A stretch of DNA of 64,000 bases from Cliona cf. orientalis (taxonomy: Eukaryota; Porifera; Demospongiae; Clionaida; Clionaidae): the NCBI GenBank assembly GCA_963930775.1, contig OZ005696.1, forward strand, positions 5,952,001 to 6,016,000, given 5' to 3'. Shown here piece by piece: positions 1,301 to 61,561 of the stretch. Below the pieces are notes generated by a model, which saw only the letters and a program-made list of their open reading frames with translations, searched no databases and was not told where the DNA came from. The translations under genes were made by a program, and so were the position numbers. The first letter of the stretch is position 1; each line of letters begins with the position of its first letter.

Positions 1301-1561
1301 CTTGGACATAAGTGCTCTCCACCTCATCAGCCTGATGGAAAAGGCCAATACTACGGAGTGACCTAGCAACATGCTTCCAACTGGGGTAAGGATGATGAGT
1401 GGCATAGAGGTCAAGGTACGCTTCTCTCCTCTGGAAGGGACTATCATAGCTTATCTTGATTTTATTCACTTTTGATTCTGGTAGTTCAAGCCAATTTCCA
1501 ATATCTTCGTCACCCAATATCTTTGTCAACTCCAGCAACTTTTCTACTGTGATAGTGAGAT
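1301..1561 (-). CDS. Death-fold exon C of left-edge Death-ROCO gene (gene 3, partial)
   Basis: This 261-nt exon (87 codons) has an AG acceptor just above 1561 and a GT donor below 1301, and is phase 1 at both ends. It encodes a helical Death-fold module with the family marks GNWLELPESKV, REAYLDLYATHHP and PSWKHVARSLRSIGL. It matches the exon at 47471-47722 closely, with three extra codons near its start, and the flanking intron is also alike (about 1640-1760 versus 47838-47935). In the family such modules assemble homotypic signalling complexes in the cytosol. The long GTPase exon of this gene would lie left of the window, so whether the gene is intact cannot be judged. Confidence 0.75.
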
Positions 1562-3259
1562 CTGCATTGATAGCAAGTCACAAGTGAATAAAAGAAATCT
1601 ATTCACAATAATTAAATTTTATTATGCTATCTACATGTATAGTGGGCCTCTCACAGATTTTCATTGATTATACTTCACTATGTAAGATCACGCTGGCAAC
1701 TTGTTTTTACGTGCAGGTACATGTAGTTGAATAATCGAGTGAAGGTGCCAATATTTATATCGTTAATGATTCAAAGACGATTATTTCAGAAAATATCGTA
1801 CTTTCGTGAAAAAGGACCCATGAGTGGTACACTTTACATTAGGCTCAAATAGGGGGATAAGTCAACATTCGAGATATCAATAATATTGTGCACTATAAAG
1901 CGCACAATAGTGCTGGACTGTGCTGAATGTACAACCCATTGTAACAATCTTCAACCATGTAAGGAGTTAATTTGTAACACTATTATTATGTTGAAAAAAG
2001 GACACTTCCAAATAACGGACAAAACCTCATGCACCAATTTATCCATTATAAAGAGATTTCACTATATAAAGTATGCACAACAGTGCTGGACTGTGAAAAA
2101 TGCCTGTTTGCACCAATGTTTGGTGCTCTTTCAAGATATTGAGGCAAAACTGGGGGATAGGGGACAATCCATACGGAGTGTTCATTTGCAACACTACGGT
2201 ATTATGGGTAAATGGGGTCTATGCTTACCAAAGGCAGACCAAATTGATTGCTTTACTCCTTGCGCATGCACACTGGATAAATACATGTATGAACTAGACT
2301 GCTACTACATGTACATACATAGCTATCTTACATTTGATTTGGTACTATAGGGCTTCACATTTCAGTCGGCAGCCAAATAGTATAGTGCTATATAGTGTGG
2401 TCACGAGCATTATGTAGGTAGAATATGGAACATGCTGACGATCTTCACCAGTTTATAATATGCTAGGCCACTTAGTTATGCGCATGAGCAGAAAGCATAT
2501 GGCCTAGCTGCATATATATGTATTGAGTTTTGGCACTGTCGATAGGTGTGACTATGGTGGCCAATAAAAAGGTACAATTGTGACGTTTGTGGACCATATC
2601 CATCAATTTGAAGCATACTAAAGTCTGTTACTCGCCAAATTTGACTGATTCGGTGTGTTTACAAGTCGCTCAGGTGCCTAGATCTCGACAACAATACGGT
2701 TGATTACCTTACCCCTTGGGCATATGTACAGGGTAATACGACCAACTTATTGCCCATGCATTCTTTGTGCATGTGTACACTGAATTACATCATAGAAATT
2801 TCATTTGAAAAGAACAGAGTGAAAGACCATCTTTGAATTTGATGTGGGCAAAGAACAGGAAATATTATGTTTAATGGCCTAAGTTATTTCAAATGATTCA
2901 TTGTACGCAGAGATGCTACATGTACTCCTATAATCAAAGTGTTAAACATTGGACCATACCCACCAAATTACTTGCATGTGCACACACATTTTTTTTGTCT
3001 ATACTATTATTATAATAATATTACAGATACAAGGGGTATACAAGTACATTAAGCATGTACATGAATAGCCTTCAGCTAAAACAGATGATGTTATGCAGGT
3101 TATACATAATATTATTATCTGTCTCCACTAAGTGCACGCCTTAGCTTCTACTTTTCATGGTGATACATATTTCACAATGGGTCTATGCAAGAATTTTACA
3201 CTGTGAATATTAATTTTAAGGAGGCAGCCATCATCATCATGATTATACTTCACACTTAC
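1562..3259. repeat. Intron of gene 3 with two dispersed repeats
   Basis: Two repeat families are visible. The segment at about 1808-1890 recurs at 49250-49345 and 46925-47010. The segment at about 2536-2990 recurs at 19708-20140 and, in part, 54470-54940 and 38560-38680. The part at 3040-3259 matches 59040-59284 and belongs to the segmental duplication that carries exon B. No coding similarity was recognised. Confidence 0.55.
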
Positions 3260-3536
3260 CTCTGAGTGGTAGGAATGGTTTTAATTTCTCCACAGCAGCA
3301 AACTCCCCCCATCTGTACAGCCGACTGGCAAGATGTGTCCAGGAAGACAGAGGATGGCAGTGGACATAGTAGAAAGCACACTCATTGGCTGTTTCTCTTT
3401 TAGTGGAGCACCTCTGCTGGATTCCTTTCAGTTGGCTAGGAGGGACTAATACATCAGTATAGTCATGAATACAGTGACTTCCAGTCATTCACTAATTCCA
3501 TAGCTTCAGCAACACTCTCAGTCGTCAAGGTGGGAT
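3260..3536 (-). pseudogene. Death-fold exon B of gene 3, frameshifted
   Basis: The splice sites match the other B exons (AG before ATCCCACC, GT after the codons for PLRG). The exon is 277 nt, whereas intact B exons are 276 nt (12056-12331) and 279 nt (59285-59563), so it is not a multiple of three. Translation reads ELVNDWKSLYS then a stop; the rest (IQQRCSTKRE, ANECAFYYVHCHP, SWTHLASRLY, VEKLKPFLPLRG) is in another frame. One indel in the variable loop after NDW explains this. Skipping the exon would restore frame because both ends are phase 1, so the gene could still make protein without B. An assembly error is the alternative. Confidence 0.7.
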
Positions 3537-3863
3537 CTGAAATGCAGTCAATATCCACAGCTTGGAGCAATTTTACTAAACTAGATGGTATTAAAAATTT
3601 AATTAAGGAAAGCACATGCACATACATACACGTACATGTACACATACACAGATTATGGATAGATTAAGGACTGTCACTAATGAGGTCATGCATTCTAGTC
3701 TGTATGAGATGGTGTGTTGTTGCTTTTTTCTGGAGCAGGGCTAGGAACTCAGAAACCCGTCAATATTATTATTAGTGGTGTATTGTTTGCCCTTGAAATC
3801 CAACCTGGACCACACCGAGTTATTGGCACTGCTGATGGGAAACTTACACTTATGATCACCCAC

Positions 3864-4103
3864 CTTGGATTGGTTCTCCATGGTTCCTAATACGATTGGC
3901 AATTTGATCCTCCCCCACTTCATCTAGTATAAAGATGAGGGCCCTCCATGAGGGGGGCTGGTAGTCACCTCTTCCAAGGAGAAATCCCTCCACTGCATCC
4001 TCAAGGCTGCTTGCTGAGTAAACACCGAAACAATCTCTTAGAAGTGCCAAGTTCTGTACTCCTTTCACTGCCTCTAATACATTTCCTTGAGTGAGGGGTG
4101 GAA
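3864..4103 (-). CDS. Death-fold exon A of gene 3
   Basis: This is a 240-nt (80-codon) symmetric phase-1 exon, with acceptor TTCAG at 4104 upward and donor GTGGGT below 3864. It encodes PPLTQGNVLEAVKGVQN, then SASSLEDAVEGFLLGRGDY, then PPSWRALIFILDEVGE and a closing HGEPIQG. It is a near copy of 61322-61561 and more distant from 11123-11356. No stop is present. The 327-bp intron to exon B matches the intron of gene 2, which there carries a large transposon. A Death-like helical bundle is the best family assignment. No upstream first exon was recognised. Confidence 0.75.
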
Positions 4104-4162
4104 CTGAACGAGAAAAAGATTTATATACACCTTAGAATTAAACTCCACTAATTATTATCAAA

Positions 4163-5832: not shown

Positions 5833-5841
5833 CCGAGGCTG

Positions 5842-5895: not shown

Positions 5896-5898
5896 CCG

Positions 5899-6790
5899 AG
5901 GCTGGAGCTCAGCATAGACTCGCTGCATGCACTAGATCTAGTCTAGGGACAAGGGTAAACAATTTTTTAAACCTTTCTTTGGTGGAACTGCTCCGGCTAT
6001 ATAGATCCTCCATCATAGATCACAGCCACGCCCTCCTACTTTCCGCATTAATTGGTAGGAATTTCCCCTTGAGCATGATGAGTGGCTCCAGCTGATCATG
6101 ACAAAGGTCATTCTCCGTTTCCAAGCTCGGAAGAGCCATCTACGGATTGCTCCTCTACCTGGGATCCTATCTGCTACTAGGTGACTACGTGTAGGTTATG
6201 ATGGTGTCATCTGTGCTAGTCCTGATCATGAGTGCGTACTAGTCTGGCGTAGCCGACCCTCGCAGGAAGAGGGTCGGCTACACCAGACTAACCGACTCTA
6301 TGATAGATTATATAGCTTCTATGCTGAGACTAATGATAATCATAAATTATAATATATCATACATGTTAAATCAAAACTATATTCCATGGCCGGAAACCTC
6401 ACTGCTGGGGACGATCGAGCCTATAATAAACATTATTTGTGCTCAAACAAGCCGAGGCTGGAGCTCGAGCTCAGCCTAGACTCGCTGCATGCCCTAGATC
6501 TAGTCTGGGGACAAGGGTAACTTATGTACGGGTTTTAAACCTTTCTTTGGTGGAATTGCTCTGGCTAGGTCCTCCATTTTAAGTCACGATCCCAGGCTGG
6601 ATTACCACGCCCTCTGCTGTTAATTGGTAGGAATTCCCCTTGAGATGGTGGTGGCTCCAGCTCATTCTCCGTTTCCCAGCTCAGAAAGAGCCATATACGG
6701 GTGTGCCCTCTACCTGGGATCCTATCTGCTACTAGGCTAGGTGACTACGTGTAGATGTGATGATGATCATTAGCTGTGCTAGTCCTCTAA
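5899..6790 (+). repeat. Local direct duplication (about 340-bp units)
   Basis: About 5899-6235 and 6453-6790 are direct copies about 555 bp apart. Both contain AGACTCGCTGCATGC, a CTAGATCTAGTCT block, TTTAAACCTTTCTTTGGTGG and a closing GGTGACTACGTGTAG. The second copy continues into sequence (about 6780-6900) that recurs at 22340-22500, so the region belongs to a larger duplication with the 22-27 kb segment. Confidence 0.65.
6240..6290. mobile_element. 51-bp fold-back hairpin, same terminal motif
   Basis: The arms begin TAGTCTGG and read through GTAGCCGACCCTC to the complement on the other side of a short loop. The TAG...CTA ends match the fold-back family at 5842, but the flanks differ (AGTGCGTAC versus ACCGACTCT), so no target duplication survives. 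It is probably an older insertion. Confidence 0.5.
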
Positions 6791-7261: not shown

Positions 7262-8695
7262 AAGCATGTATTTGAGCAGGCCTCCAACCATCCCTTCTTA
7301 GTCGGACTACACTCCTGTTTCCAGACAGACAGCAGGTGGGTTTGCATTACATGATATGCAGTGAATACACGTGAAAGGTGAAAGAGAAGAAATAATATGA
7401 GAGACTAGGGGAGAGATTTAACAAGAGAGACAGAGAGAGATTTAACGAGAGATAGAAAAAGAGAGAGTATATTATGTAAGGGAGAGAGAGAGAGAGAGAT
7501 TGATCGAGACATCTATCCTTTTCCCCCTCCAGGCTATTCTTTGTAATAGAGTATGTGAATGGTGGTGATCTGATGTTTCACATGCAACGACATTGCCGTC
7601 TCCCTGAGGAGCATGCTCGCTTCTACTCGGCAGAAATCTCGTTAGCACTCAGCTTCCTCCATGAGAGAGGTATGTAAACCCAGACTACAGTCCATGTGTT
7701 ATTATATTACTACAGCTCCATTATTAATTATTATCATGTACAAAGATTTTTCATGGAATGTTTGAATTAGGAGCTATATTATCTCCCCAGTAGCAATTTA
7801 CTTTTCTGTGGTTATGAGGTAATTATAGTGTAATTATGATGAAACCTATGGTGTAATCTCTTAGGTAATCTATGAGGTAATTATGAGAAAATTTAGGGCC
7901 TCGCTGGGGCCTTTCTGAGACTTGAAAATCAGTAAATATGTAGAGTATCTTACGCGTGTATCCAGCGAATAGATTATAAGCTGAGCGTTACTTTCTCTGA
8001 GAAGTACTGTTGGTTGAACTTCACATGTTTTCTTGGCTTACGTAATGCCATGGATAAATAAAGCTAGCCTTGCGCTATATATAGCACGCATCACTGAAGG
8101 GGCTGGCCCGCGCGCGACTGCAGCAGCCTGACCAACCTGAACTTCGGAAGGAATACTGTGTTGTCGAGTTCGTCTCTGTGATTGAAGCATCGAAACTTGT
8201 CGCTATCAAGGTTGAGAGTCGATCTTAGACGCCATCTTCATGATTTCTGGGGCCAGCATCGATCGATGTGTACGCATTCTATTGACGACCTTTTACCACA
8301 TGCACCATTACACTGTGCAGCTACTGGGGAGATGGTCAAGTGTTCATTTACATAAGCTTATACTACAGTTACCTGTTTAATTTTTTTTGTTTCAGCTTCG
8401 GCAGTGACAGATGAACCCTCCCTACAAACCAAGAATTGACTCGATCCTCAATTTGTAGTTGAGCCGCTTGACTTCACCCCTGATGACAGGTGAGACATAC
8501 ACTAGTTACCCAACACCAGATCCATACTACGATTGAAATTCACTCTCTCCCTCCATTTCTCTCTCCCCTTTCCACCCTTCTCTCCCTCTCTCCTCCCTCA
8601 CATGCAGTGATGTTCTTCAAGCCATTGATTAGTCTGAGTTTGAAGGTTTTGAGTACGTCAATTCTCTGCTGATGTCCAAGGTGGACGATGTGTGA
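7262..8695 (+). pseudogene. Atypical protein kinase C, copy 1 (internally deleted pseudogene)
   Basis: Exon 7262-7335 encodes [20 protein letters not shown] and ends in DSR at a GT donor. Exon 7533-7669 continues [19 protein letters not shown] to the HERG codons. These are N-lobe/hinge segments of the PKC zeta/iota catalytic domain. The loop with the catalytic DLKLDN motif and the C-lobe exons present in copy 2 are missing. Sequence then resumes at the turn-motif exon (8396-8489, NPPYKPRI), which has an in-frame TGA and about 22 bp deleted, and the last exon (8608-8695, SEFEGFEYVN hydrophobic motif), which has an in-frame TAG. The intron holds a MITE. This copy cannot encode an active kinase. 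Confidence 0.85.
7780..8333. mobile_element. MITE with CCCCAGTAGC ends, copy 1
   Basis: The terminal inverted repeats are TCTCCCCAGTAGC and GCTACTGGGGAGA. The interior (GGTAATTATGAGAAAATT, AATAAAGCTAGCCTTGCGCT, TTATTGACGACCTTTTACC-like blocks) is shared with 39766-40285 and, inverted, with 59623-61088. The equivalent intron in the second aPKC copy (about 26815-26825) lacks it, which shows insertion after the duplication. No coding capacity was seen. Confidence 0.7.
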
Positions 8696-9528
8696 TGGCT
8701 GTGTGGCTCACGGTGACAATCTAGGCTCTCTCCTTTAGACTTAATGTGATCAATCATTGCATGTACCACTAGCTACATGTATAAAGTTATTGTATTGTTA
8801 TCAGACAAACCCTGTTGTGGTATACACATCATCAGGCACTGCTCTTGATGTTTATCAGATCATATGCATTTTTATCAAATAGCTACATGTATAGTCTATT
8901 TTGGATTCTAGCAATTTTTTTGTGAAAATAACCTATTCTCTACATCTATAATCCATAATACGCGTGCCTACCATGTGACATCTGATATATATCCTGATTG
9001 GTCAGTTTCTTAGTGTTTGTGTTTAGATGGTAGGAAATCGTTGGCTGGCATATTTTTAGTGCAGTGCACTATAGTGTTCACAGGGGATTATAATTGCCTG
9101 AGGGAGGTCAATATTTTAGTTATAACACCCCTGTTACCTAGGATACAAGGGTGAATCAGGATATATAATAATAATATTATCCATAACTTTAATTAGCAGC
9201 AAGCCTTTTATAAATTTAAGGAAGGGGGGGGGGGGGAAGTTCCCTAATCCAAAGTCGATCATATTGATATTACAATGAGGCTCTCTTAAAGAAGATTCAG
9301 AGTAGATTTCAGCTAGCCCGGCCTTGTCATTAGATAGTGTCTACAGGTCCTTCCAGACGACAGGCCTTCTATGAAGAACGTTATTGCTAGACTATCAGTT
9401 TGATTTTAACCATACCATGCAATCATGATGATGTGTCCCTAAACCCGGAACTATAAATGCTAGCGCTTGCGCACATGATCCCAATCCTGCCACGCCCAAG
9501 TGCTACCTAAGCTACTGCTATTAAAAAG
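8696..9528. other. Downstream of the kinase pseudogene, no gene
   Basis: The first 200 bp match 27156-27370 (3' flank of the second kinase copy). A poly-G run lies at about 9226-9238. No exon was recognised. Confidence 0.5.
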
Positions 9529-9568
9529 ATGGCGGAGATAAGCAATGAAGCAGGAGCACTGAACAGAG
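9529..9568 (+). CDS. Candidate first coding exon of gene 1
   Basis: ATG at 9529 starts MAEISNEAGALNR followed by a GT donor (GTATAA) at 9569. The exon ends in phase 1, the phase that exon A at 11123 requires. The start lies in AAAGATGGCGGAG, which resembles the YY1-type element often found at animal start codons. I see no transcript evidence, and other exons may lie between this one and 11123. It could also be chance. Confidence 0.35.
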
Positions 9569-11122: not shown

Positions 11123-11356
11123 CCCCACCCCTAACGGTGGGAAATACTTTGAAGGCATTGGAGGGAGTGGAGGACTGGGGAGAGGTGGCCAGCTGGCTTG
11201 GTACATACAGTAGCAGCCTCAAGGAAGCTGTGGAGCTGTTTCTCCAGGGACGAGGTCACTTTCAGCCCTCATGGAGGGCAGTCATCTTTGCTCTTGATGA
11301 AGCAGGAGAGACTCCTATTGCCAGTTGTATTAGGAGCTATGGAGAACCAGTCCAGG
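11123..11356 (+). CDS. Death-fold exon A of gene 1
   Basis: This 234-nt (78-codon) exon has a CACCAG acceptor and a GTAGAT donor, phase 1 at both ends. It reads PPLTVGNTLKALEGVEDWG, SSLKEAVELFLQGRGHF, PSWRAVIFALDEAGE and closes with YGEPVQG, matching exon A of genes 2 and 3 over its length but with many substitutions. The alternating hydrophobic pattern and the W in PSWR fit a Death-superfamily six-helix module. Exon B follows after 699 bp. Gene 1 is the most diverged of the three for this exon. Confidence 0.75.
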
Positions 11357-12055: not shown

Positions 12056-12331
12056 ACCCCACCTTGACGACCGACAGTGTGGCTCAAGTCATGGAGTTGG
12101 TGAATGACTGGAACTCACTTCACGTTGCTTATTATAAAGAAGTAGTCCCTCTCAGCCGACTCACTGAGATCCAGCAGAGGTGCTCCACTGAGAGAGAAAT
12201 AGCCAATGAGTGTGCCTCCTACTATGTCCACTGCCATCCTCAGTCTTCCTGGACACATCTTGCCACTCATCTGTACAGGGAGGGGGAGTTTGCTGCTGTG
12301 GAGAAATTAAAACCATTCCTACCACTCAGGG
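12056..12331 (+). CDS. Death-fold exon B of gene 1
   Basis: This 276-nt exon (92 codons) lies between TTTCAG and GTAAGT, phase 1-1. It starts DPTLTTDSVAQVMELVNDW and carries EIQQRCSTEREIANECASYY, VHCHPQSSWTHLATHLY and FAAVEKLKPFLPLRG. It aligns with the B exons at 59285 and 3260, differing mainly in the loop after NDW. It is open throughout. The C-rich helix (ECASYYVHCHP) is a B-specific mark. It probably acts as a protein-protein docking module rather than an enzyme. Confidence 0.75.
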
Positions 12332-13021: not shown

Positions 13022-13285
13022 ATCTCACTATCACAACAGAGAAACTGGTGGAGCTGTTTGTAACAGTGAGGAGTGATTATGGTTTAGAGGAACGGTTAGA
13101 TGTACCAGAGTCTAAGATTGCTGAAATGCAGAGGAACCTCCGTAGCCCCTCCCAGAGAAAAGAAGCGTACCTTGACCTCTATGCCACTGGCCATCCCTGT
13201 CCAAATTGGAGGCAGGTTACTGGGGCACTCAGTTATGTTGGCCTTTACTATCAGGCTAGGACAGTGGAGAGGACTTATGTTCAAG
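13022..13285 (+). CDS. Death-fold exon C of gene 1
   Basis: This 264-nt exon (88 codons), with acceptor CATAG and donor GTATTG, is phase 1-1. It reads DLTITTEKLVELFVTVRSDY, then LDVPESKIAEMQRNLRSPSQ, RKEAYLDLYATGHPCPNW and ends with TYVQG. The exon aligns with 47471-47722 and 1301-1561; REAYLDLYAT and P-x-W are shared. The helix order is typical of the Death superfamily. It follows B by 690 bp and precedes a 42-nt linker exon. Confidence 0.8.
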
Positions 13286-14668: not shown

Positions 14669-16775
14669 TGAGTGAAAGGGCACAGCTCAACTTTGATGAA
14701 GCCATGAAGGAGGGAGGATCCAACTTCCGGAGTGGTAGTTCGTTCCTGATGGGGGCTGGAGGGTCTGGGAAGACCCACGTTCTTCACGCTTTCCTTAAGG
14801 AGAAACCTCCACCCGTACGACAAAGCACACAGTGTGTTAAGAATCCAGTGAGGGCAATAGCTCAGTGCAAGCTTGGCGTCAGCAAGGAGACAGCTGGTGA
14901 GACTCACTTTACCAGGATCACCGACCAACAGTACTCTGACATGCTCTGTGAGTCAGCCAAGCATTTTCAACTATTGCATACAGGCAAGCGACTGCCACAA
15001 CCACACACCAGACGACTAGAGGGAGATGAAGCAGCTGTAGCTCATATCTCAGCTGGAGATTTCAATGTCTTACCTCCAGTACAAGACGTGGAATCTGCTG
15101 TCACTGATATTACTAAGATTTTAAAGCATAGTGGGTTAGAGAGTGAGCTTGTTGTTCGAATGCATGCTGGATCAAAGGCAGCCGGTCAACTGGATGACCA
15201 GGATGTGATTGACATGGGCGATTCTGGTGGGCAGCCAACATATCACGAAATACTTCCAGTTTTTGTCTCCAACACCATGTTTGGCATGCTCGTGGTGAAG
15301 CTCAACGAGCCTCTTGACAGTCACCCATTAGTTGAGTATTATACTAATGGGAAACCCATTGGAAAGCCTTTCAAATCTCCTTTCACACACCTGCAGACCT
15401 TTCGCCACTGCATGCGAGTCCTTCAGTCGACTTGTGAAAGTGGCAAATGCCCTAAGATTGCCTTCATAGGGACGCACAAGGATCTTGAAGATGAATGCAA
15501 GGACGAGAACAGAGCAGAAAAGGAACGAAAGCTGCTCAGCATCATCCCTCCAAACATGATGGATCATGTCATCTTTTGTGATGAAGAGTCTCAGAGGCTA
15601 ATATTTGCCATCAATGCCAAATGCCCAGGGGATGATGATCAGGCAGTCCTTGCTGATTTGAGATACCTCATGTTGCGTGAGCTACAGAAGCTCCAACGTG
15701 TCAGAATCCCACATCGATACTTTGCTTTGGAGATGGCTTTCAAACGGTTCGCAAAGTACCAAAAGAAGGCAATTCTGAGCAAGGAAGAATGTTTCAAGGA
15801 AGCAACCAAATTCCACTTTACGAGAGAATCTTTTGAAGATGCTTTGAAATACCTCACAGCCCACAAGCTTGTCATGCATTATAGTGAGGTCCTTCCAGAG
15901 GTAGTGTTCATAAATTCTCAGGTCGTCCTTGACAAGATCACAGAGCTTGTAGAGCATAGCCTAACACTGCGTGCAAAGCTGCCTACCCAGGTTCGAGCAG
16001 CTAGAAGTGTTCGTGGTTCTCGAGAGTTTAAGTTATGTGGTATAATCACACGAGACATTCTCTCACAGTTTGAATCAGGCTACATTCCAATGCTTTTTGA
16101 GGAAGATCACCTAATCTTGCTTTTCAAGCATCTTCTGATTGTTGCTGAGGTAGGTGAAGGTAAGTACCTGATGGCGTGCCTCCTTGAGGAAGAAGCCATA
16201 CCTCATCCCTTGTCACTCCCAGCCCCTCAGGTTGCCGCTTCTCTTCTCTTCTACTTTGGTCCAGATGGTCCCAAGCTAGGAGTCTACTGCTGTCTTCTTT
16301 CCACACTAATCACAGATTCCAAATGGGAACTTCTTATGGAGGGTGGCAACCCTGTCCAGCTTTCACGAAACAAAGCTCGCTTCAAAGTTCCAGGGAAGAA
16401 CCCTGGTTTCATCACAATAACGGATATAACGGATTCTTTTACTACCTTCTTCCATATCGAGGTCACCTTTCCTTCTGATATTAGCCAAGCAAAAACACTT
16501 GAAGTGTGTGAAAAGGTCTGCCCATTGATCCACGAGACTGTCCTCACAGGAATTCGCAAAGCATCGCGACGATTGAACTACAACAATTCGATTCCTGAGA
16601 TAGCTTTTCTCTGCTCTAGTTCCAAGCACCAAGACACCACACTGCATGCAGCTACCATTTCTAGTAGTTGCCTTTTGACCTGTACCACTAACCCATGCAG
16701 CCTCCGTATTCAGTGAGTTGACTGAGGAACACAAGATCTGGTTCGGCAAAGATGCACCTTTCTCATCTGATGCAG
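14669..16775 (+). CDS. Roc-COR type GTPase exon of gene 1, frameshifted near its end
   Basis: This long exon begins SERAQLNFDEAMK. It carries a P-loop GAGGSGKTH about 20 residues on, a switch-like DMGDSGGQP (15211-15237) and a THKD base-recognition motif (from 15472): the G1, G3 and G4 marks of a Roc-type small GTPase. A COR-like region follows from about 15700 (RIPHRYFALEMAFKR, then winged-helix-like stretches) to about 16560. Roc-COR proteins are GTP-controlled signalling scaffolds. The exon is 2107 nt, one more than a multiple of three. Relative to gene 2, about 4 bp are extra near 16690 (TGTACCACTAACCCATG), giving a stop at 16714-16716. Downstream codons (SELTEEHKIWFGK) are open in the shifted frame up to the donor. 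As read, the protein ends before Death exon D. Confidence 0.85.
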
Positions 16776-16847: not shown

Positions 16848-17125
16848 GTGTACTTACCATCAAAGACCTTCGTAAGGTTCAGAGAGCCACTTGGGAAGCC
16901 AGGGTGAAGTGGTACAACATTGGTCTGGAGCTGGAGATTGATCCAGGAACATTAGACACTATCAAGACTGATAATGAGAACAGTGATGATCGATTTCGAA
17001 CCATGCTCACGACTTGGCTGAAGATGGTCCAACCTAAACCCACTTTAGCAGCATTAGCTGAGGCCCTCCAGTCCCCCACTGTTGAATTTGGACATCTAAC
17101 AGAGCAAGTCCAAGCACTGAAATGA
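16848..17125 (+). CDS. C-terminal Death-fold exon D of gene 1
   Basis: Acceptor ATGCAG is followed in phase 1 by GVLTIKDLRKVQ, then ARVKWYNIGLELEIDPGTLD, DDRFRTMLTTWLKM and a C-terminal LTEQVQALK with TGA at 17123-17125. W-x-x-I-G-x-x-L, the D/N-rich turn and the closing WL are typical of a canonical Death domain. The 72-bp intron before it is of the usual short size. It is reached in frame only if the frameshift in the preceding exon is not real. Its partner at 27857-28134 is clearly orthologous. Confidence 0.8.
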
Positions 17126-17438
17126 ATTGTTTTTGGTTTTTTTGTGTGTGTGTGTGTGTGATAAATTTTTATTTGTGTATCTGTTATCACATTTTCAATT
17201 TTTGGCATATCACCTATATCAAGAGTAAATAACAATCTTGCCAATATTTTCATTCACTACCTTTTGAAATGCCACTGCAAAGAGCTGCACTTTCTCGTTT
17301 TGTGAGTAGCTACAATCGAGGAGAATTAAAATGTTTATGTTTTAATTATCCGTGCTACAATAATAATATTATTAATAATTTGCGATTAGTACGCTACAGG
17401 ATCGACACACAGCACTGAGGATCTTTTCCAATCCAATA

Positions 17439-18760
17439 ATGTGGCCTGGTCCAGTCCACCAGGCTGCGGTGATCGGTGTGATAGGCACACACAATCTGCG
17501 AGCTGCCGTCTTCCGCGACAATCGAGTTGAGCTGATCAAGGATGAACTGGGCAACGACTCGACTCCCGCCTTTGTTGGCTTCATCCTCCAATCAGAGTCT
17601 GCTGACAACTTGGCTCGCTATACCACCGTCCTCGGTCGACATGCCTATGATCTGGCGCAAAGAAACCTCTCTCACCCCGTGTATGGGCTGAAGAAGCTGC
17701 TGGGGAGGAAGCCAGATGACCATATAAATTTTAGCGAGAGAGGGAACTGGCCTTTTGAAATAGCAGCTGATCAAGATAGGCTTGCTGCAGTCAGCATTCC
17801 TGCCACTAAAATTAATCATCCAACAGCGGCAAGCTCAAGCTCTACAAACCAGAGGAGTTACTGTCAATGGTGCTTTGAAAGGTGGTCGAGAAGGTTGATG
17901 TGCACCTAGGAGTTCCCATCAAGGAGGCTGTTGCAACTGTACCCGCTTGTTTTGGCTTCATGGATCGAGTGCGTATCACACAGCTTTGCGATGCAGCTGG
18001 GATTAAAGTGAACCGATTTATTAACGAGGCATGGGCGGCTGCAGTTGCTCATGGATTTGAGACTGATAGCAAAGATGCAATGAATGTTATTGTCATCAAC
18101 GTTGGTGCTGGTTTCATTGATATTTGCTGCATCATGATAGATGTCAACATGATATGATCTACGAAGTCCGTTCTTCATATATTATGGCTATCCCCTCACA
18201 CCCGATACTCAGAAGGAGTTTAGTTTATGAAATTTTCAGAGCTTAGAAAATGCGTCAGAAGCGTTCAGCTACAAGCATGAGCAAAAATTGACCAAATTTT
18301 GCTATGTGGGGGATCATTGAGTCTTCCTGAAATTCTAAGAGCTTTTTGTAATCTCTTTGTTGGGGTGGCCCTGTGATTATTACCGATCCGTCCACAGCTG
18401 CTGTTAGAGGTGCAGCTGTCTATGCCGCACTCTTGGGTGGAGATAGGAACAAATGATTCGAAGATTTCATCGCTTTGTCGGCTACAAATTTTGCGCTTGG
18501 TATCAAGGTCATAGACAGTAGTGTCAAGACTGTACTACAGCAAAACCTGCCCTGCCCTGCGAGAGTGACTAGGCAGTTCACCACTAGCATAGATGACCAA
18601 ACGATGGTTGTTTTTGAAGTGTATGAGACGGGAGAACAAGAAGGTGTGCGTGAAGATATGCTGCATTTCTTGGTGAAATTGTTCTGAGTGGTATCCTTCC
18701 TCTGCCCAAGGGAAGGCTGGTGCTGGACATAACAGTCAACGTTAAAACTAACCATTGAAT
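17439..18760 (+). pseudogene. HSP70-like gene, broken
   Basis: Stretches in three frames align with the HSP70 ATPase domain: VELIKDELGNDSTPAFVGF and VYGLKKLLGRKPDDHINF, then TVPACFGFMDRVRITQLCDA with INEAWAAAVAHGF, then YVGGSLSLPEI and RGAAVYAALLGGD. The substrate-domain start follows (FALGIKV, FEVYETGEQEGVRED, GILPLPKGRLVLDITV). The first phosphate loop is altered: the usual DLGTT is GVIGTH. Several frame changes and an in-frame TGA after GGDRNK show it is not translatable as a whole. No introns are needed in the aligned part, so an old retrocopy or a decayed intron-poor gene is possible. Confidence 0.8.
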
Positions 18761-20776: not shown

Positions 20777-20798
20777 ATAATATGATCTATGCCATAAC

Positions 20799-21792
20799 AT
20801 GGAGTTGTTTGGGGCACGCCTTGAGTGGCCTCGTTTCGGATGCGCTCTAGGCCTCTCGCTTCTCATTTCATTGTACGGATGGAAAAAGCGGTCGTTGAGT
20901 CTCTCGGGTGCTGTGGCGGCCGTTGTTGTGGGATTTGTGCTGACCGCGGCCAGTGCTTGCTTTAGTGTCACTCTTTTGGTGTTCTTCTTTACTTCATCTC
21001 GGCTGACCAAGTGGAGAGGCAACGAGAAACGAAAGTTGGAGGAGGACTTCAAAGAAGGTAGCCCTAGCATAGATATTAAAGTTAATTGATTTGACGATCT
21101 TTATCTATCCAGGGGGACAAAGGGACTGGGTTCAAGTCCTTTGCAATGGAGGCGTGGCAACTGCTTCAGCTGAAATCTACATCCGTGATGTAGGTTATGG
21201 TGAACATGCATGCCTTGAACCTGTGGGCCAAGTACTGCGAGCCATTCGCAACCACATTCTTTGTTCTCTTTGTCGTGTCATCGCTGGCTTGCTGCTGTGG
21301 GGATACATGGGCGTCTGAAATTGGGTCTGTTATTGGGGGAACCCCTAGACTAATCACTACTTGGAGACGTGTGCCTAAGGGAACAAACGGCGGTGTGACG
21401 TTAATCGGAACGCTGTGCAGTATTGCAGGTGGACTGGTGGTTGGGATTGCATACTGGATCACAGAGACAGTGTTTCAAGTGTCTTTGTGAGTGGTGACAG
21501 TGGCAATATTATATCTCCATGGTCGCAGTACCCCTATGCTATCATTGGAGCCGCTTCTGGTCTGTTTGGATCTCTTGTCGATTCAATTCTGGGAGCCACT
21601 CTCCAGTATTCGGGCTACTCTGAGAAGCTGGACAAGGTAGTGAACTCGCCTGATGAAGGAGTCAAGCACATCTCTGGACTCAACATACTCGACAATCACA
21701 GTGTCAACTTTCTGTCCTCACTCATAACAGCACTGGTGGTACCCCTTACCTGGCATGAACTTGTTACAACCTATGTCCTTCCAATTTGCTGA
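20799..21792 (+). pseudogene. TMEM19: TMEM19 homologue (DUF92 membrane protein), two apparent frameshifts
   Basis: ATG at 20799 opens exon 1 (to 21057) with two membrane segments and RLTKWRGNEKRKLEEDFKEG. After a 55-bp intron, exon 2 (from 21113) continues GGQRDWVQVLCNGG. The family signatures GDTWASEIGSVIGG, PRLITTWRRVPKGTNGG, LVDSILGATLQYSGY and ILDNHSVNFLSS follow in order, ending at TGA 21790-21792. The reading frame changes twice, near 21200 and near 21475, so one uninterrupted protein is not obtained. Coding similarity is strong on both sides, so sequencing errors or a recent pseudogene are both possible. In animals it is a small multipass membrane protein of poorly known function. Confidence 0.8.
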
Positions 21793-23727: not shown

Positions 23728-24118
23728 GTAACATACATACTACTGAATTTGCACCCCCCCCCTCTTCAGCATAATGCTGTATAGCTGAAATTATGGACTC
23801 AACTTCCTACCAACTTATTTTACCTAACTTACTACCATAAGATTTGCAATTAGCAGCCTGATCCCTCCCTCTCCTTGCAGCGTAATGCTATATAGCTGAA
23901 AATTTGCCAAATCTAATGTTGTACAGAACATCATAAATCAATAACACTGTCAAGGCAAGTGGTCACTGCATCATCTGTGTAATCCTTGACGTAGGAACAG
24001 ATACTTTTCGCCAACAAGGCTGGGTGGGGGATCGAATTAGTTCTGTTCCAGCTTCACAGAATTATTTTATACATGACATTAATTGTTACGGCCAGGCGGC
24101 AGAGTAAGGATTGTTATT

Positions 24119-27856: not shown

Positions 27857-28134
27857 TTATTTCAGTGCTTGGACCTGCTCTGCCAGATGTCTGAATCCAA
27901 CAGTGGGGGACTGGAGGGCCTTGACTAATGCTGCTAACGTGGGTTGAGGTTGGTCCATCTTCAGCCAAGTTGTCAACATGGCTCGAAAACAATCGTCAAT
28001 GTCTCTATTGTTCCCTTGAATAACATCCAACGTTCCTGGAGCAATGTCCAGCTCCAGACCGATGTTGTACCACTTTGCTCTAGCATCCCAAGCTACTCTC
28101 TGGACCTTACAAAGATCGTTGATGTCAAGTGAAC
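27857..28134 (-). CDS. C-terminal Death-fold exon D of gene 2
   Basis: The exon is entered in phase 1 after CTTGTAG, reads GSLDINDLCKVQ, then ARAKWYNIGLELDIAPGTLD, DDCFRAMLTTWLKM and LAEQVQALK, and stops at TAA (27857-27859). Length and motifs match 16848-17125. It follows the GTPase exon after a 98-bp intron. A canonical Death domain here would let the GTPase recruit Death-domain partners, which is inferred from the family. Confidence 0.85.
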
Positions 28135-28232: not shown

Positions 28233-30311
28233 CTGTAGATGTGCTGATGGAGCCTTTTCCAAGCCACAGTCGGTGTTGTTCTGTCATCTCACTGAACACA
28301 CTAGCAGGGTGGGTAGTACAGGTCAAGTGTCCAAGGCTGGAAATGGTAGCAGGGTGCACTGTTGGCTGATGTTTTGAGCAAAGGAAGGCTGTCTTGGGAA
28401 TTGAATTGTTGTAGTTCAATCGTTGTGAAGCTTTGCGGATCCCACTGAGAATTGTCTCCCGAATTACTGGACAGGCTTCTTTACATATTTCAAGTGCTCT
28501 ATCTGGACTAATGTCAGAAGGAAAAGAGATATCGACACGAATAAACGAAGAAAAGGAATCTGTTATTGTAATGAAACCAGGATGATTTCCTGGAATTGTG
28601 AATCGAGCTTGGTTTCGTGACAGCTGCACGGGATTGCCAACTTCCATGAGAAGCTGCCACTTGGCTTCTGTGATAAGAGCAGAAAGAAGAAAGCAGTAGA
28701 CTCCAAGCTTGGGTCCATCTTCACCAAAGTAGAAGAGAAAAGGAGAAGCAATCTGAGAGGATGGGCCAGGTGAGAGACGAGATAAGTCTTCTTCTCGTAA
28801 CAGGCATGACATCAAGTATTTGCCATCACCTACTTCTGCAACAATCAGTAGATGCTTGAAAAGCAAGATCAGGTGGTCTTCTTCGAAAAGCTTTCGGACG
28901 TAGTGAGACTTAAATTGAGAGAGAATATCTCGCGTGATTATGCCACAAAATTTGAACTCTCGGTAACCACGTACACTTCTAGCTGCTCGGATCTGTGTGG
29001 GCTGATTTGCATGCAATGTTAGGCTATGCTCTACCAACTCTGTGATCTTGTCTAGGATGACTTGAGCATTAATGAAGACAACCTCTGGAAGGACCTCACT
29101 ATAATGCATGACAAACTTGTGATCTCGAAGGTATTGTAGTGCATCTTCAAATGATTCTCTTGTAAAGTGGAATTTGGTTGCTTCCTTGAAGCACTCTTCC
29201 TTGCTCAGTATTGCCTTCTTTTGGTACTTTGCAAGTCGTTGGAAAGCCATCTCCAAAGCAAAGTATCGATGTGGGATTCTGACACGTTGGAGCTTCTGCA
29301 ACTCAAGCAACATGAGGTACCTCAAATCAGCAAGGACTGCCTGATCATCATCCCCTGGGCATTTGGCATTGATGGCAAATATCAGCCTTTGTGACTTTTC
29401 ATCACAAAAGAGGACATGATCCTTCATGCTTGGAGGAATGATACTGAACAGCTTTCTTTCTTTTTCTTCTCTGTTTTCACCCTTGCATTCATGCTCACGG
29501 TCCTTATGTGTCCCTATGAAAACAATCTTAGGACACTTGCCTATTTCTGAAGTTGACTGGAGAACTCGCATGCAGTGGCGAAAGGTCTGCAGGTGTGTGA
29601 AAGGAGATTTGAAAGGATTTCCGATGCGTTTCCCATTAGTATAATACTCAATTAGTGGGTAACTATCAAGAGGCTCGTTTAGCTTCACTACGAGCATGCC
29701 GAACATGGTATTGGAGACAAAAACTGGAAGTATTTCATGATACATTGGCTGCCCACCAGAATCACCCATGTCAATCACGTCCTGGTCATCAAGTTGACTA
29801 GCTGCCTTCGATCCAGCTTGAATTCGAACTATAAGTTCTTTCTTAAAGCCGCCATGCTCCTGGTGCACCCCCTTACTACTTGTAGATTCTGCGGGTTTGG
29901 CTTGTTGCTCTGTAGGTAACGGAATGTATACATGAGCAACAACTGTTGCTTGCTGTCTTAGTCTGGTATGTGATGGTGGCAAGTGTAATCGCTTCCCTGT
30001 GCTAGACTCTAGCATACTCTTGGCTGATTCACACAGCATATCAGAGTACTGCTGGTCAGTGATCCTGTTGAAGCAAGTCTCACCGGTTGTCTGCTCGTGG
30101 ACTCCGACCTTACATTGTGCTACAGCCCTCACTGGATTCTTAACACACCCTGTGCTTTGTCGTACGGGTGGAGGCTTCTCCTTGAGGAAAGCGTGAAGAG
30201 CGTGAGTCTTTCCAGACCCTCCAGCCCCCATCAGGAAGGAACTGCCACTGCGGTAGTTCAGCTCACCATCTTTCATGGCTTCATCGAAGTTATACTGTGC
30301 CCTTTCACTCA
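28233..30311 (-). CDS. Roc-COR type GTPase exon of gene 2 (intact)
   Basis: This 2079-nt exon (693 codons) is open throughout and phase 1-1, from TTACAG to GTACAT. It has the P-loop GAGGSGKTH, DMGDSGGQP, GTHKD and the same COR-like region (RIPHRYFALEMAFQR, KEECFKEATKFHFTRESFED, IRAARSVRGYREF) as gene 1. Most of the protein is closely alike, but the linker between the P-loop part and the switch motif differs (TEQQAKPAESTSSKG here), suggesting relaxed or diversifying change there. The C-terminus runs through EMTEQHRLWLGKG into exon D. It should act as a cytosolic GTP-dependent signalling scaffold, by family. Confidence 0.88.
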
Positions 30312-47470: not shown

Positions 47471-47722
47471 CTTGGACATAAGTGCTCTTCACCTCATCAG
47501 CTTGATGGATAAGGCCAATTCTACGGAGTGACCTAGCAACATGCTTCCAACTGGGGCAAGGGTGATGAGTGGCATAGAGGTCAAGGTACGCTTCTCTTCT
47601 CCGGAAGGGACTATCGTAGTTTGTCTTAATTTCATCTACTCTTGATTCTGGTAGTTCAAGCCAATTTCCAATATCTTTGTCACCCAACAACTCCAGCAAT
47701 TTTTCTACTGTGATAGTGAGAT
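47471..47722 (-). CDS. Death-fold exon C of gene 2
   Basis: This 252-nt exon (84 codons), acceptor AATACAG and donor GTATGT, is phase 1-1. It reads DLTITVEKLLELLGDKDIGN, WLELPESRVDEIKTNYDSPF, RREAYLDLYATHHPCPSWKH and ends TYVQG. It is open and very close to 1301-1561. It is 17 kb upstream of the GTPase exon of gene 2, an interval with several MITEs and retroelements, so membership in the same transcript is inferred from strand, order and phase. Confidence 0.75.
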
Positions 47723-48994: not shown

Positions 48995-50147
48995 AGTCGG
49001 AGTCGGTATCATAGAGTCGGTAGACTCTATAAGTAGGGATGGCACGGATACTCCATATATATAAAATACATTACAAACATCCAAATATCTCAAAACAGGT
49101 AACTTTGTGAGATTTCTAAGTGTCAAAATCAGAATCTACAGCAAATTGTCTATCTAACAAGACCAAGACCATTCATCAATTCAATTGTATATGCCAGAAC
49201 CAGATGTTCAAAAAAATAGCCATTTCTCATTCTTTCTTTCTTTCTTTCTTTGTGAAAAGGGGCCATAAGTGGTGCACCTTACATTAGGCTCAAATAGGGG
49301 GATGAGTCAACATTTGAGGTATCAATATTGTGCACAACAGTGGAACCTCTTATAACGGACACTCCAAATAGCAGATACCTCCGTCTAATGGACATCTATC
49401 CTTTGCACCAGATGATCTTTTTATATAATTAATATAAAATCTATGCCGTGCATCTGCAGCAACAGCGTCCAGGTAACTGGAAACAAAAATGCTGGGTATC
49501 TAGCCTCCACAATCATGAACAAGCATCAGCTATTCCCCAGAAAGACATTCTGAATCAGTGTATGAAGTTAATACTTAACACGTGTCATGTTTCATTGAAT
49601 GTATAACCCAATATAAGGAGATAAATAGTTATACCACGGTCACCATAGATTTATCGCTGATGAACACACCTTGAGTTATGCGGTATTTCTCCATTGTTAT
49701 TATTGCGATGTTGATTCTCCTGCATACCATGTTATTATAGACAAAAACAAGAGCTCTGTAGAGAACATACCCCGTGCGCAATCTGTAGATCTACTTTCGT
49801 GTGCACGGCTATTTTTGTAAAATTAATAATTATTTCAGAATTAGTTAGTAGAAATGGCTGGGTTGTGATGTCAGCCAAAAAAACACTGGTTCTCTCTCTG
49901 CACCAGATCTAAACTAGGAAGATATGAACTGCTATTACATAATATCATAGAGTCGGTAGACTCTATAAGTAGGGATGGCCCGGATATGCCATATATGTAA
50001 TACAAAACAAAAACATTAATAACTCAGAGCAGAAAAATTTTTAAGATTTTTGACGTACATATTCATGATCTACGCCAGAGTATCTATCTATCAAGTCCTG
50101 AACCATCCATGGAAACAATCAGGTATGCCTAAACTAGCTGTTTTTAA
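48995..50147 (+). repeat. Pair of direct repeats (ATAGAGTCGGTAGACTCTAT)
   Basis: The segment at 49010-49130 is repeated at 49945-50060: ATAGAGTCGGTAGACTCTAT, AAGTAGGGATGGC, then ATGTAATACA-type sequence. The second copy is interrupted by the TTAA element at 50148. TTCTCATTCTTTCTTTC occurs both at about 49225 and after the TTAA element (51190), so the element split a repeat unit. Confidence 0.6.
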
Positions 50148-51155
50148 GGTAGCATTAAAGTGCGTGGGCGTGAGCGTCAGGATTGGCTAATTCAATTAGC
50201 GAATCGTGAAGGGGCGTGGCCGAAGAGGCCATACAAGTGCTTTTGGTCGAAGGTGGGCGTGTCTAGAATCGGCCAGGGATGATTATGCGCGTGTAATTAG
50301 GGACCGGAAGTGGCCCCTGAAGAAAACACCGGTAATTGCCCACTTCAAAGCAAGATCAAAGCATTCTTTCTTAACTATTAACCGCAACGACTTAAAAAAA
50401 AAAAAAAAAAAGCCTTATTAGGCCTAATTAAGCATGTGGGCGTGTTCCTGGCACTGTGTGGAGTGTGTGCGTGTGCGTTAATGCAGGTTTTATTGCTTCC
50501 GATTGGGCGTGGCTTCACGGGCCAGTGCTTGGATATCGGCGCCTGGGACTTGGCCTCGGCGATAGGTGGGCGTGTCCCGGAAGCGGTGGTGACCTTTGAA
50601 CCCCGCGAGGAGGCTTTGGGGGCGTGGCAGGATGTCAAAGGTAAGGCCGTGTCTGTTAATGAGGCACTGTACGCCGGTGCGATGGAGGGGACCGTACGGC
50701 TGGACGAAAGCTGACGATGGTTTGAAGCGGATGTGGTTGCGATGACGTGTTGTTACTCCGCCCACACAGGAAATGAGGTGAGCTCTTGCGTGGGCGGTGT
50801 GGCAGAACGGCCTCCAAGTGTTTGTGTGTGTTTTGGCCTTGAGGAAGCTGTGTGTTTTAATTGGGATTGATTGTGGGCTTCCGGTGGACATCCGGTGGTT
50901 AGTAGGCACTTGATTGAGAATGGTGGTCCTTGGGGAACAGGGTGGGGCTGTTTTGGGCGTGGCCTGGCCCCTCCCTTCCGGCTCGGCTTCCGGTCCGTGG
51001 AGGATATTAAATGAACACTTCCGGCTCTAGCAGCCACACCCCTGAGACCTGTGCAATTAAAAGGGCGTGGTTACACAACATGCACCTCACTAATGACTTT
51101 GATGTGGTTTAGGTGTCATATCCCCCACCTCACGCCCACGCACTTTAATGCTACC
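50148..51155. mobile_element. TTAA-flanked element, copy 2 (1008 bp)
   Basis: TTAA flanks at 50144-50147 and 51156-51159. The ends GGTAGCATTAAAGTGCGTGG and complement correspond to those of 24546-25975, and the bodies are nearly identical outside one 420-bp block that is missing here, replaced by a poly-A tract at 50394-50411. It has the same GGGCGTGG-rich body. Frames inside on both strands overlap each other and are not convincing genes. Confidence 0.85.
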
Positions 51156-54940: not shown

Positions 54941-54955
54941 TATACACTAAGGTAC

Positions 54956-58260: not shown

Positions 58261-58261
58261 C

Positions 58262-59284: not shown

Positions 59285-59563
59285 CTCTAAGTGGTAGGAA
59301 TGGTTTTAATTTCTCCACAGCAGCAATCTCCCCCCGTCCGTACAGCCGACTGGCAAGATGTGTCCAGGAAGACAGAGGATGGCAGTGGACATAGTAGGAA
59401 GCACACTCATTGGCTATTTCTTTCTTAGTGGAGCACCTCTGGTGGATCTGTATGTGTTGGCTATTAGGGACTAATATATACGTATCGTTACGAAATATTC
59501 TGCAGCTCCAGTCATTCATTAATTCCATAACTTCAGCAACACTCTCAGTTGTCAAGGTGGGAT
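59285..59563 (-). CDS. Death-fold exon B of gene 2
   Basis: This 279-nt exon (93 codons), phase 1-1, begins DPTLTTESVAEVMELMNDW and continues IHQRCSTKKEIANECASYY, VHCHPLSSWTHLASRLYGRG, AAVEKLKPFLPLRG before a GTAAGT donor. It is open. The loop after NDW (RIFRNDTYILVPNSQ) differs from the other two copies, the main variable part of this module. The flanks match gene 3. Confidence 0.75.
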
Positions 59564-60099
59564 CTGAAATGCAATCAATGTCCACAGCTTAGAGAAATTT
59601 TACTAATTGAAGCACTTGACCATATATCCCCAGTAGCTGCATAGTGTAATGGTGCATACGGTAAAAGATTGTTAATATTATAGTGCGTACACATCGATGC
59701 CGGCGCCAGAAATCATGGAGATGGAGTCTATAAGATTGGCAAGTTGTACAGCTTCCGAACTTCAGGTTGGTTGTACGCCGTAGTCTTGTGGACCAGCCCC
59801 TTCACAAATGATGCGTGCTACATATAGTGCAAGGCTAGTCTTGTTTATCCACAGCATTATGTAAGCCAAAAGAATGTATGAAGTTCGGCCAGCGGTACTT
59901 ATCAGAGAAGGTAATACGCTACTTGTAAGTATTCGCTGGATACAATGGAACCCCGCTTACCAGACACCCCTCAATGGCGGACACCTGCGATAATCACAGA
60001 TAATTCTGAATGTCCGGATTATATTTCCATAGACTTCAATATGATAATTCAAACCCCCTCAACAGCGGACACCCCACTATTCTGTATAACAGACACTTA

Positions 60100-60436
60100 G
60101 GCCATACCAAGTTAATTTTTTTGTTCCTCGGATTCAGCGGGTCTGTTTTGGCTGTTTTTAATTAACACTCCTCACATTATGATAGTGACAGGCCAGGAGT
60201 ACTCTTTAGAAAGAGCACTCTTGGTCGTGCTATGTTAAAGCTAAACGATCATCAAAACTGCTCTAGAATGCAAGTATTCACTACTAATTTAAAAATGATA
60301 GCTGGCTGTCTGTGGACTGGTGATGCTCCACAATTTACTAGGCAACACCTCCTGTTTTTTTTTATTTCATGCCGACCACCCGTGTCTGTTTCCAGTTCCT
60401 GTTTATCTGAGAAACAAAATATCAAATTGATATGGA
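60100..60436. mobile_element. Harbinger-like MITE, copy of 36606
   Basis: GGCCATACCAAGTTAATTTT begins it after TTA (60097-60099). GTGACAGGCCAG, GTACTCTTTAGAAAGAGCAC and CATGCCGACCACCC match 36606-36973 throughout. The right end is slightly decayed (GATATGG). Confidence 0.65.
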
Positions 60437-60552
60437 ATTACTTGGTCCCGTTCGAGCCTGTTCAATAGTGAATAACCTCGCATAATGGCCAGTTAGCCAC
60501 ACCCACTACTAAATTGCTCAGTTTCAGCGACCAGTAGCTATACAGTAAAGCC

Positions 60553-60713
60553 CAAGGGCGTAACTAGAAATTTTTTTATACTTAGGCAGGTAATAAAGAC
60601 TGCGCGTGAAATTTTAGCCACGCCCCTTAGAGTTGAGTATTTTAAGTATATAGCTGGCTGAACTGATGACCGAGGCAGCTGCCTCTGTTGCCTCAATGGT
60701 AGATACGCCCTTG
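60553..60713. mobile_element. 161-bp MITE with CAAGGGCGTA ends and 6-bp duplication
   Basis: CAAGGGCGTAACTAG and the complement of CAAGGGCGTATCTAC bound it; AAAGCC is present at 60547-60552 and 60714-60719. It lies within the pogo-like element, so it is the younger insertion. Confidence 0.75.
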
Positions 60714-61321
60714 AAAGCCTAAAGATGTCTCCAATTCTTGCCTAGGAGCTGTCAGTTGACAGACGTCTCATCAATACTGTCTTTTTGTCGTCCACAGTTG
60801 TACTTTATTATAGCTGGCTGCGATTGTTGGAGAGGCGTGGTCAACCACCAACCCCTGAGCTAAGGACACCTCACTACAGCAGACAAACTTATTGGTCCCA
60901 ATGGTGTCCGTTCTAGAGGGGTTCCACTGTACATACGTAAGATACTCTACATATTTACTGATTATCCAGTCCCAGAAAGGCTCCAGCGAGATCCTGAATT
61001 TTCACATAATTACCTCATAGGTTATATCATAATTTCACCATGATTATACCTCATAACCTCCAGAAAAGTAAATTGCTACTGGGGATATAACTAGATGATT
61101 TTAAAATTAAGTAGAGCATGCACACATAGATGTATGTGTACACAAACATGGATTACGGATAGATTCAGGATTGTCACTAATGAGGTCATACATTCTAGTC
61201 GGTATGAACTGATGTGCTGTGGCATTAATATTGCTCTTTTCTGGAGCAGGGCAGGAACTCACAGAAACTCATCAATATTACTATTAGTGGTGTATTGTTA
61301 GCCCTTGAAATCCAACCTCAC

Positions 61322-61561
61322 CTTGGAGTGGTTCTGCATGGTTCCTAATATCATCGGCAATTTGAGTCTCGTCCATAAGATCTAGTGCAAAGATGACTGC
61401 CCTCCATGAGGGGGGCCGGTAGAGACTATTTCCAAGAAGAAATTCCTCCACTAAATTCTCAAGGCTGCTTGCTGAGAAAACGCCAAAACAACCTTCTAGA
61501 AGTTTCCAGTTCTGTACACCCTTCACTGCCTCTAATACGTTTCCTTGAGTGAGGGGTGGAA
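61322..61561 (-). CDS. Death-fold exon A of gene 2
   Basis: This 240-nt exon (80 codons), phase 1-1, acceptor CATTCAG and donor GTGAGG, encodes PPLTQGNVLEAVKGVQNWKL, SASSLENLVEEFLLGNSLY, PPSWRAVIFALDLMDE and ends HAEPLQG. Open throughout. It is the first recognised exon of gene 2; no start codon exon was found between here and the right edge. The nearest relative is 3864-4103. Confidence 0.75.

Follow-up and report, generated by a model that had tools for sequence, protein, structure and literature searches.

We describe a tandemly arranged gene family of the sponge Cliona cf. orientalis in which diversifying selection acts on three small exons, here named A, B and C, while the GTPase exon and the terminal Death-domain exon (D) that follow them are constrained in the same clades. 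This contrast is our main new result. It started from a stretch of 64,000 nucleotides (nt) on chromosome 8 (C8:5952001-6016000; hereafter the window), in an assembly of 216,785,154 bases and 149 contigs. A sequence-only reading had found there three Death-ROCO genes built from exons that start and end in phase 1. Based on our data, these genes belong to an intracellular signalling family with a leader, three Death-fold-type modules, a Roc-COR exon and a C-terminal Death domain, which would work by docking and switching; we give this reading a probability of about one half.

Diversifying Selection on Exons A, B and C

In each of the three modules, a hypervariable patch follows the first predicted helix and changes length in whole codons. 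Further variable positions lie later in the modules, and the splice borders and several positions flanking them are near-invariant. Broken copies aside, the exons measure 234-261 nt (A), 270-300 nt (B) and 252-303 nt (C). Nonsynonymous divergence (dN) exceeds synonymous divergence (dS) in windows of the patch, as in columns 25-36 of the plus-clade B alignment, which are partly gapped (0.89 vs 0.39).

Site models (GY94 M1a and M2a) were fitted with FastTree branch lengths, rescaled, and columns with more than 20% gaps were excluded from the main fit. Besides the local genes, we used exons from 19 of 20 fetched loci for A (without L044, and with L040 shortened by two codons; the paralogue g-i was left out too, its match starting a residue late), 18 of 20 for B (L067 and L068 out) and 18 of 20 for C (L079 and L083 out), loci being dropped where our exon picker found no conserved ends. 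These loci had been chosen by hand among the better matches of the searches, and one A match with a stop was skipped. The same dropped loci, and L040 too, are absent from alignments A7-A9. As controls we took GTPase exons from five of the eight minus-strand genes (two others are broken and one lies at a tile edge) and from 13 plus-clade copies, and D exons from five of the eight minus-strand genes and three plus-clade copies.

Twice the log-likelihood difference between M1a and M2a (2dlnL) was 160.4, 142.0 and 155.9 for plus-clade A, B and C (n = 21, 22 and 22), and 33.4, 30.6 and 15.7 for the minus clade (n = 8, 7 and 8), with a selected site class at a dN/dS ratio (omega) of 4.2-6.8. The controls gave -0.1 for the minus-clade GTPase exon (n = 5) and 1.3 and 1.0 for D (n = 5 and 3). 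In null simulations of the three plus-clade sets, eight for each, 2dlnL never exceeded 8.8 when one tree was used, or 17.5 when tips were reshuffled over three blocks. Five of the six A, B and C sets were still significant after removal of the gapped patch and of all columns with gaps. Whole-exon omegas from IQ-TREE (minus/plus) were 1.06/1.42 for A, 1.29/1.46 for B and 0.73/1.53 for C, against 0.27/0.32 for the GTPase exon and 0.47 for D (minus only). The same contrast was kept in pairwise Nei-Gojobori ratios, of 0.68/0.88 (A), 0.87/0.92 (B) and 0.50/1.29 (C), compared with 0.19/0.20 for GTPase and 0.35/0.32 for D.

Several points tell against this result. The script for the site models was our own and not PAML, the comparisons are between paralogues and not between alleles, and the D control comprises few sequences. 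The plus-clade GTPase control showed a weak signal of its own (2dlnL 9.3, n = 13, p 0.01), minus-clade C lost significance without the gapped patch (p 0.13), and the Nei-Gojobori ratio is below 1 in five of the six A, B and C sets. These last ratios, mostly 0.5-0.9, would also suit modules that simply drift in a graveyard of pseudogenes, and so would the broken frames in the neighbourhood (GTPase in five of 12 genes, B in one of 12). Relaxed constraint, however, predicts an omega near 1 instead of a site class at 4-7, and under it neither the GTPase exon and D, which stay at 0.3-0.5, nor the near-invariant borders of A, B and C would be expected. We consider this explanation very improbable and, on the site models, the null simulations and the IQ-TREE omegas, reject it as the whole cause.

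Gene Structure, Phases and Start Exons

All 13 exons of the sequence-only reading were confirmed. Gene 1, on the plus strand, has exons A (11123..11356, 234 nt), B (12056..12331, 276 nt), C (13022..13285, 264 nt), GTPase (14669..16775, 2107 nt) and D (16848..17125). Gene 2, on the minus strand, has A (61322..61561, 240 nt), B (59285..59563, 279 nt), C (47471..47722, 252 nt), GTPase (28233..30311, 2079 nt) and D (27857..28134); its introns between B and C (~12 kb) and between C and GTPase (~17 kb) are longer than those of its neighbors. Gene 3, also on the minus strand, has A (3864..4103, 240 nt), B (3260..3536, 277 nt) and C (1301..1561, 261 nt) in the window. The sequence-only reading gave it A, B and C, but it extends beyond the left edge of the window, where its GTPase exon (C8:5948693-5950765) and D (C8:5948278-5948550) complete the exon set.

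In the window, each of the 11 exons of types A, B, C and GTPase is bounded by AG and GT, in phase 1 at either end, while both D exons have a phase-1 start and close with the stop codon. The proposal that each of these 11 is frame-neutral was too broad, as a length that is a multiple of three was found in nine. The B exon of gene 3 (1 mod 3) has intact borders but five in-frame stops, and the GTPase exon of gene 1 (also 1 mod 3) has three near its 3' end, so that the reading of gene 1 ends after 953 residues, before D, which is itself open. Gene 2, in turn, reads through 1041 open residues from A to D with a single terminal stop. The published assembly (odCliOrie1.1; 217.17 Mb, 19 chromosomes, PacBio HiFi reads) has a quality value of 58 (PMC12639293), and the frame breaks are thus more likely real than sequencing errors.

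Start exons, which the sequence-only reading lacked, were also found. Six of the eight minus-strand genes have an ATG exon with a short leader. That of gene 3 (6541..6577, minus strand; MEDLARAIPPKK plus one base) ends in a phase-1 donor and is conserved in neighboring paralogues. The one of gene 1 (9529..9568, plus strand; MAEISNEAGALNR plus one base) likewise ends in a phase-1 donor, is conserved with the paralogues g-h and g-i, each of the three encoding 13 residues, and continues in frame through A, B and C; the gene 3 start exon also reads in frame into A. Start exons were not established for g-d or for gene 2, where a match of 37 bp, lying outside the window, was all that turned up. Leaders of the nine start exons read span 12-20 residues, and none, judged by eye, looks like a signal peptide, which indicates an intracellular protein and not a surface receptor. 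The sequence-only reading had spoken of a receptor or adaptor, and a receptor in the surface sense is not supported; in the paralogue g-b, moreover, the strand of the gene was scanned from a point 2.4 kb ahead of the start exon as far as D, and none of the 10 other open stretches of at least 60 residues has a Pfam domain at E<=0.01.

No exon was recognised between the start exon and A. A second copy of the gene 3 start exon, whose ATG lies at window position 6013, does not keep the phase and was set aside. Lists of conserved blocks were made for three of the eight minus-strand genes (g-b, g-c and g-f), and one block, in g-b, was a candidate for an extra exon between C and GTPase; it was rejected, for its sequence recurs in both orientations at differing positions. 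An interspersed repeat of ~240 bp occurs in both orientations at L011:6430-6670 and in many other places of the cluster. In some relatives (C8:8663367-8665811 and C8:7548952-7551309), a single open frame of ~820 residues spans both GTPase and D, and the last intron may be absent there.

Neighbourhood, Family Size and Multiplication of B

Twelve genes of the family were found in 264 kb around the window, that is, in 224 contiguous kb (C8:5912001-6136000) and in a further 40 kb (C8:6160001-6200000). The order A-B-C-GTPase-D, on one strand and with phase-1 introns, recurs in 11 of them, more than chance would give; in the twelfth, g-g, exon A was not found. Donors are in phase 1 in all A (11/11), B (12/12) and C (12/12) exons. 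A script placed the acceptors in phase 1 for all 12 C exons, for 11 of the 12 B exons and for 10 of the 11 A exons; the one A and the one B acceptor left over fit when the flank is read, the match starting a residue late there. In all 12 genes the GTPase acceptor is in phase 1. Nine of the 12 GTPase donors were checked: seven were flagged as fitting, and those of gene 3 (by eye) and gene 1 fit as well. For D, 11 of 12 acceptors fit, the match in g-e starting late. These local genes, together with the window exons and the eight-exon array described below, are our independent phase tests, given that the picker demanded phase 1 and an open frame of the 60 fetched exons.

The cluster had been thought to evolve by birth and death, and this is supported by the 12 neighboring paralogues: the GTPase frame is broken in five (gene 1, g-d, g-e, g-g and g-h), the B frame in one (gene 3) and D in one (g-g). 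Clustered, diversified and decaying paralogues tied to a Death domain would also be expected if the variable Death-fold faces decided over the death of fused or contacting sponge cells, as fungal intracellular incompatibility systems do, and sponges do show fusion and rejection. The basis here is, however, a single haplotype, and allorecognition of this kind seems to us quite unlikely.

Searches of the whole genome scored only the best candidates, so the counts are lower bounds. The GTPase exon gave at least 66 matches at at least 64 loci (best 64 of 554 candidates), 52 of these 64 on chromosome 8. Exon A gave 111 matches, with all 138 candidates scored, and there were at least 150 matches each for C (best 150 of 536 candidates, identity down to 29%), B (best 150 of 590) and D (best 150 of 668). 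COR-A also had at least 150 matches (best 150 of 290 candidates). The weaker C, B and D matches, and those of COR-A, will include other gene families too. COR-A matches on C2, C7, C14, C16 and other contigs lie in many cases in open frames of 700-900 residues and in others in open frames of at least 1400, and probably represent several further large ROCO-type families.

Whole modules could be duplicated or skipped without a frameshift, since the introns read are in phase 1, and multiplication was in fact found for B. Eight B-type exons lie on one strand at C8:7642054-7647657, six of the seven start-to-start steps being 542-580 bases. In all eight the frame is open and the borders are in phase 1, and seven of them look almost the same; a C exon follows downstream and A-type exons lie upstream. 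Such an array indicates that symmetric exons were duplicated in phase. In a second relative (C8:7665756-7669661), a C and an A enclose four B exons. From order and strand, each set would be one gene. The idea of exchangeable modules thus stands as regards in-frame duplication, but A, B and C were not seen to be reordered or exchanged: their order is fixed in the 12 local genes, and multiplication was seen for B alone. That the modules are linked to one GTPase is supported.

Domain Identity

The name Death-ROCO fits the 3' part of the genes best. Exon D exceeds the Pfam Death cut-off (22.6 bits) in gene 1 (28.4 bits, E 1.8e-6) and gene 2 (24.7 bits, E 2.6e-5), and a search of PDB with D found FADD (E 0.019). 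With moderate confidence, C appears to fold like a Death domain; the predicted model of gene 2 exon C has six helices and is Death-like. B is homologous to C by comparison of their profiles (95.8%); profile matches of A are weak (20.8% to C and 5.0% to B).

Among the structure matches of the C model are titles of complexes of NleB, a bacterial effector acting on Death domains, with the Death domains of FADD and RIPK1. If the loops, in which selection is concentrated, change because pathogens target Death domains, the variable sites of A, B and C would serve evasion and not recognition, the partner of each module remaining the same. Escape from inhibitors alone would nevertheless leave the conservation of the terminal D, also a Death domain, unexplained, and we regard it as distinctly unlikely.

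For the GTPase exon, domain tests were made on 27 aligned family members. The P-loop GxGGSGKT, the DxxGQ motif and THxD, which we take to be the Roc-type G4 motif, are invariant in all 27. Pfam Roc matched 25 of the 27 at E<=1 (best 0.0019). COR-A matched eight (best 1.2e-7), above its cut-off at C11:2211512-2211970 (35.7 vs 35.3 bits), inside a member 56% identical to gene 2. Weak AAA_16 matches were obtained in 21 of the 27 (best 0.0023). On its motifs, and on COR in relatives, the exon is best described as Roc-COR-like and the family as probably ROCO.

There is evidence that speaks against these assignments. Pfam Roc scores stay below the cut-off of 27 bits (13-16 bits in the window copies), Pfam did not detect COR-A in the window's own two GTPase exons, and the GTPase activity itself is a prediction. 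An AlphaFold2 model of the GTPase exon from the two window sequences had a predicted local distance difference test score (pLDDT) of 31 and was not used. As for the small modules, none of the 21 A, 20 B and 21 C exons scanned reached the Pfam Death cut-off. A PDB search with the C profile returned no Death domain, its best match being a ribosomal protein (E 0.03); profile comparisons with D were unconvincing (6.4% for C, 0.2% for A or B), and the fold of exon A is unproven. In PDB, the gene 2 GTPase exon found no match at E<=1, and the 27-member profile found only weak Ras/Rab entries (best E 0.39). In prokaryote genomes, 372 pattern matches turned up, but for none was a relationship to the GTPase exon confirmed.

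A Possible Mechanism

The constrained Roc-COR and Death parts look like a switch with an output, and A, B and C like a face turned to a changing partner. We suggest that the loops of A, B and C would form a docking surface specific to each paralogue, directed at a partner that changes fast; the likeliest candidates are products of microbes or viruses, or host proteins that these products modify. Docking would allow the Roc-COR switch to change state and to dimerise, after which D, itself conserved, could recruit a conserved Death-domain adaptor, leading to an inflammatory or cell-death response. The proteins would likely serve in immune or non-self recognition inside the cell, by way of their variable Death folds. 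Diversifying selection makes the innate-type function of the sequence-only reading more likely, but the function is still something that we infer.

Death folds usually bind other Death folds, and the partner may therefore be a microbial, viral or diversified host protein. The same habit is the basis of a different explanation, in which A, B and C pair with an upstream receptor of their own host, for instance a Death-domain NOD-like receptor (NLR), and the loops diverge to prevent cross-talk, so that variability would track host receptors and not microbes. Sponges do have Death-NACHT-LRR genes, which in Dysidea avara make up 25 of the 126 bona fide NLRs (PMC12909245), and the terminal D stays conserved. 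Insulation by itself, on the other hand, need not sustain a site class at omega 4-7 across ~20 paralogues, nor yield length changes, which makes this explanation unlikely in our view.

Returning to the docking switch, a more far-reaching version would make the Death fold itself the hypervariable recognition module: three per protein, in frame with a constrained Roc-COR and Death domain, and with up to eight copies of B. The genes would then be an animal counterpart of the LRR-ROCO genes of brown algae and a family of immune or allorecognition genes not described before, with at least 64 and probably ~100 or more members. We put this forward tentatively, as a possibility that we hold for less than even. 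Symbiodiniaceae sequences were also recovered from the sequenced specimen (PMC12639293), and symbiont control is a possible further context.

Comparison with Known Systems

The nearest published parallel that we found is the LRR-ROCO family of brown algae, proposed immune receptors in which LRR exons are shuffled and alternative splicing has been reported (PMC11378527). Both families are expanded, have separate exons of the same phase beside Roc-COR and show diversifying selection. The algal modules, however, are single LRR repeats in phase 2, interpreted as binding ligands (PMC11378527), whereas those of the sponge are of Death-fold type and in phase 1, and the sponge family differs further in its conserved terminal Death domain and its animal host. 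If brown algae and a sponge both have same-phase ROCO modules under diversifying selection, this would point to Roc-COR as a recurring base for evolving receptors.

Roc-COR is shared with the human ROCO proteins (DAPK1, LRRK1, LRRK2 and MASL1), and with DAPK1 also a C-terminal Death domain (PMC12365538). Unlike these proteins, the sponge family has three extra N-terminal modules, and no kinase, ankyrin repeats or LRR were found in g-b, the paralogue checked (Pfam, E<=0.01); on these features g-b falls outside DAPK. Moreover, at least 64 sponge loci contrast with four human ROCO genes (PMC3995007). The diversifying signal falls on domains of the Death-fold type, which are generally seen as conserved adaptors and are here linked to a switch of the LRRK2/DAPK1 type.

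Among animals, the actiniarian novel genes NG1 and NG3 also join Roc-COR to immune adaptor domains, Death included: Roc/COR occurs there with LRR and TIR, or with a kinase, Death and TIR (PMC5094078). Their architectures differ from ours, and the passages of that paper devoted to them mention neither an A-B-C array nor hypervariability (PMC5094078). The NLRs of sponges (DEATH-NACHT-LRR) are likewise large intracellular families with an NTPase switch, some with a Death domain, but their switch is NACHT and their sensor LRR (PMC12909245), in place of the Roc-COR-like switch found here. Neither NACHT nor LRR was matched at E<=1 in any of the 27 GTPase exons, nor in the scanned A, B, C and D exons or the other open stretches of g-b, and by these defining features the family does not belong to the NLRs. 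More generally, Roc-type "AP-GTPases" with COR have already been placed in bacterial and animal immune or conflict systems (PMC8195603, PMC7159879).

Judging by titles and the first lines of abstracts in the openly licensed literature, no Death-ROCO expansion or variable-Death-domain family of sponges or other animals was recognised as this one. The molecular basis of friend-or-foe and self/non-self discrimination in sponges is largely open, and the family offers named loci, exons and codons for its study.

Other Features of the Window

An HSP70-like open stretch (17379-17906, plus strand; Pfam HSP70 7.3e-9) lies a few hundred bases downstream of D of gene 1. Further along the same strand are open stretches at 20781-21792, which we take to be TMEM19-like; within them, 21194-21487 matches DUF92 at 9.9e-30. 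Gene 1 is flanked by two sets of similar pieces (7577-8771 and 24117-27231, plus strand), 89-95% identical and presumably, by motif, of an atypical protein kinase C-type kinase; two 31-residue pieces of these sets had no Pfam match. Repeat pieces 96-97% identical to each other, with long open stretches on both strands, occur ~25 kb apart at 24542-25607 and 50144-50787, and pieces of a Tc1/mariner-type transposase (HTH_23, DDE_3) are present at 62208-63240 on the plus strand.

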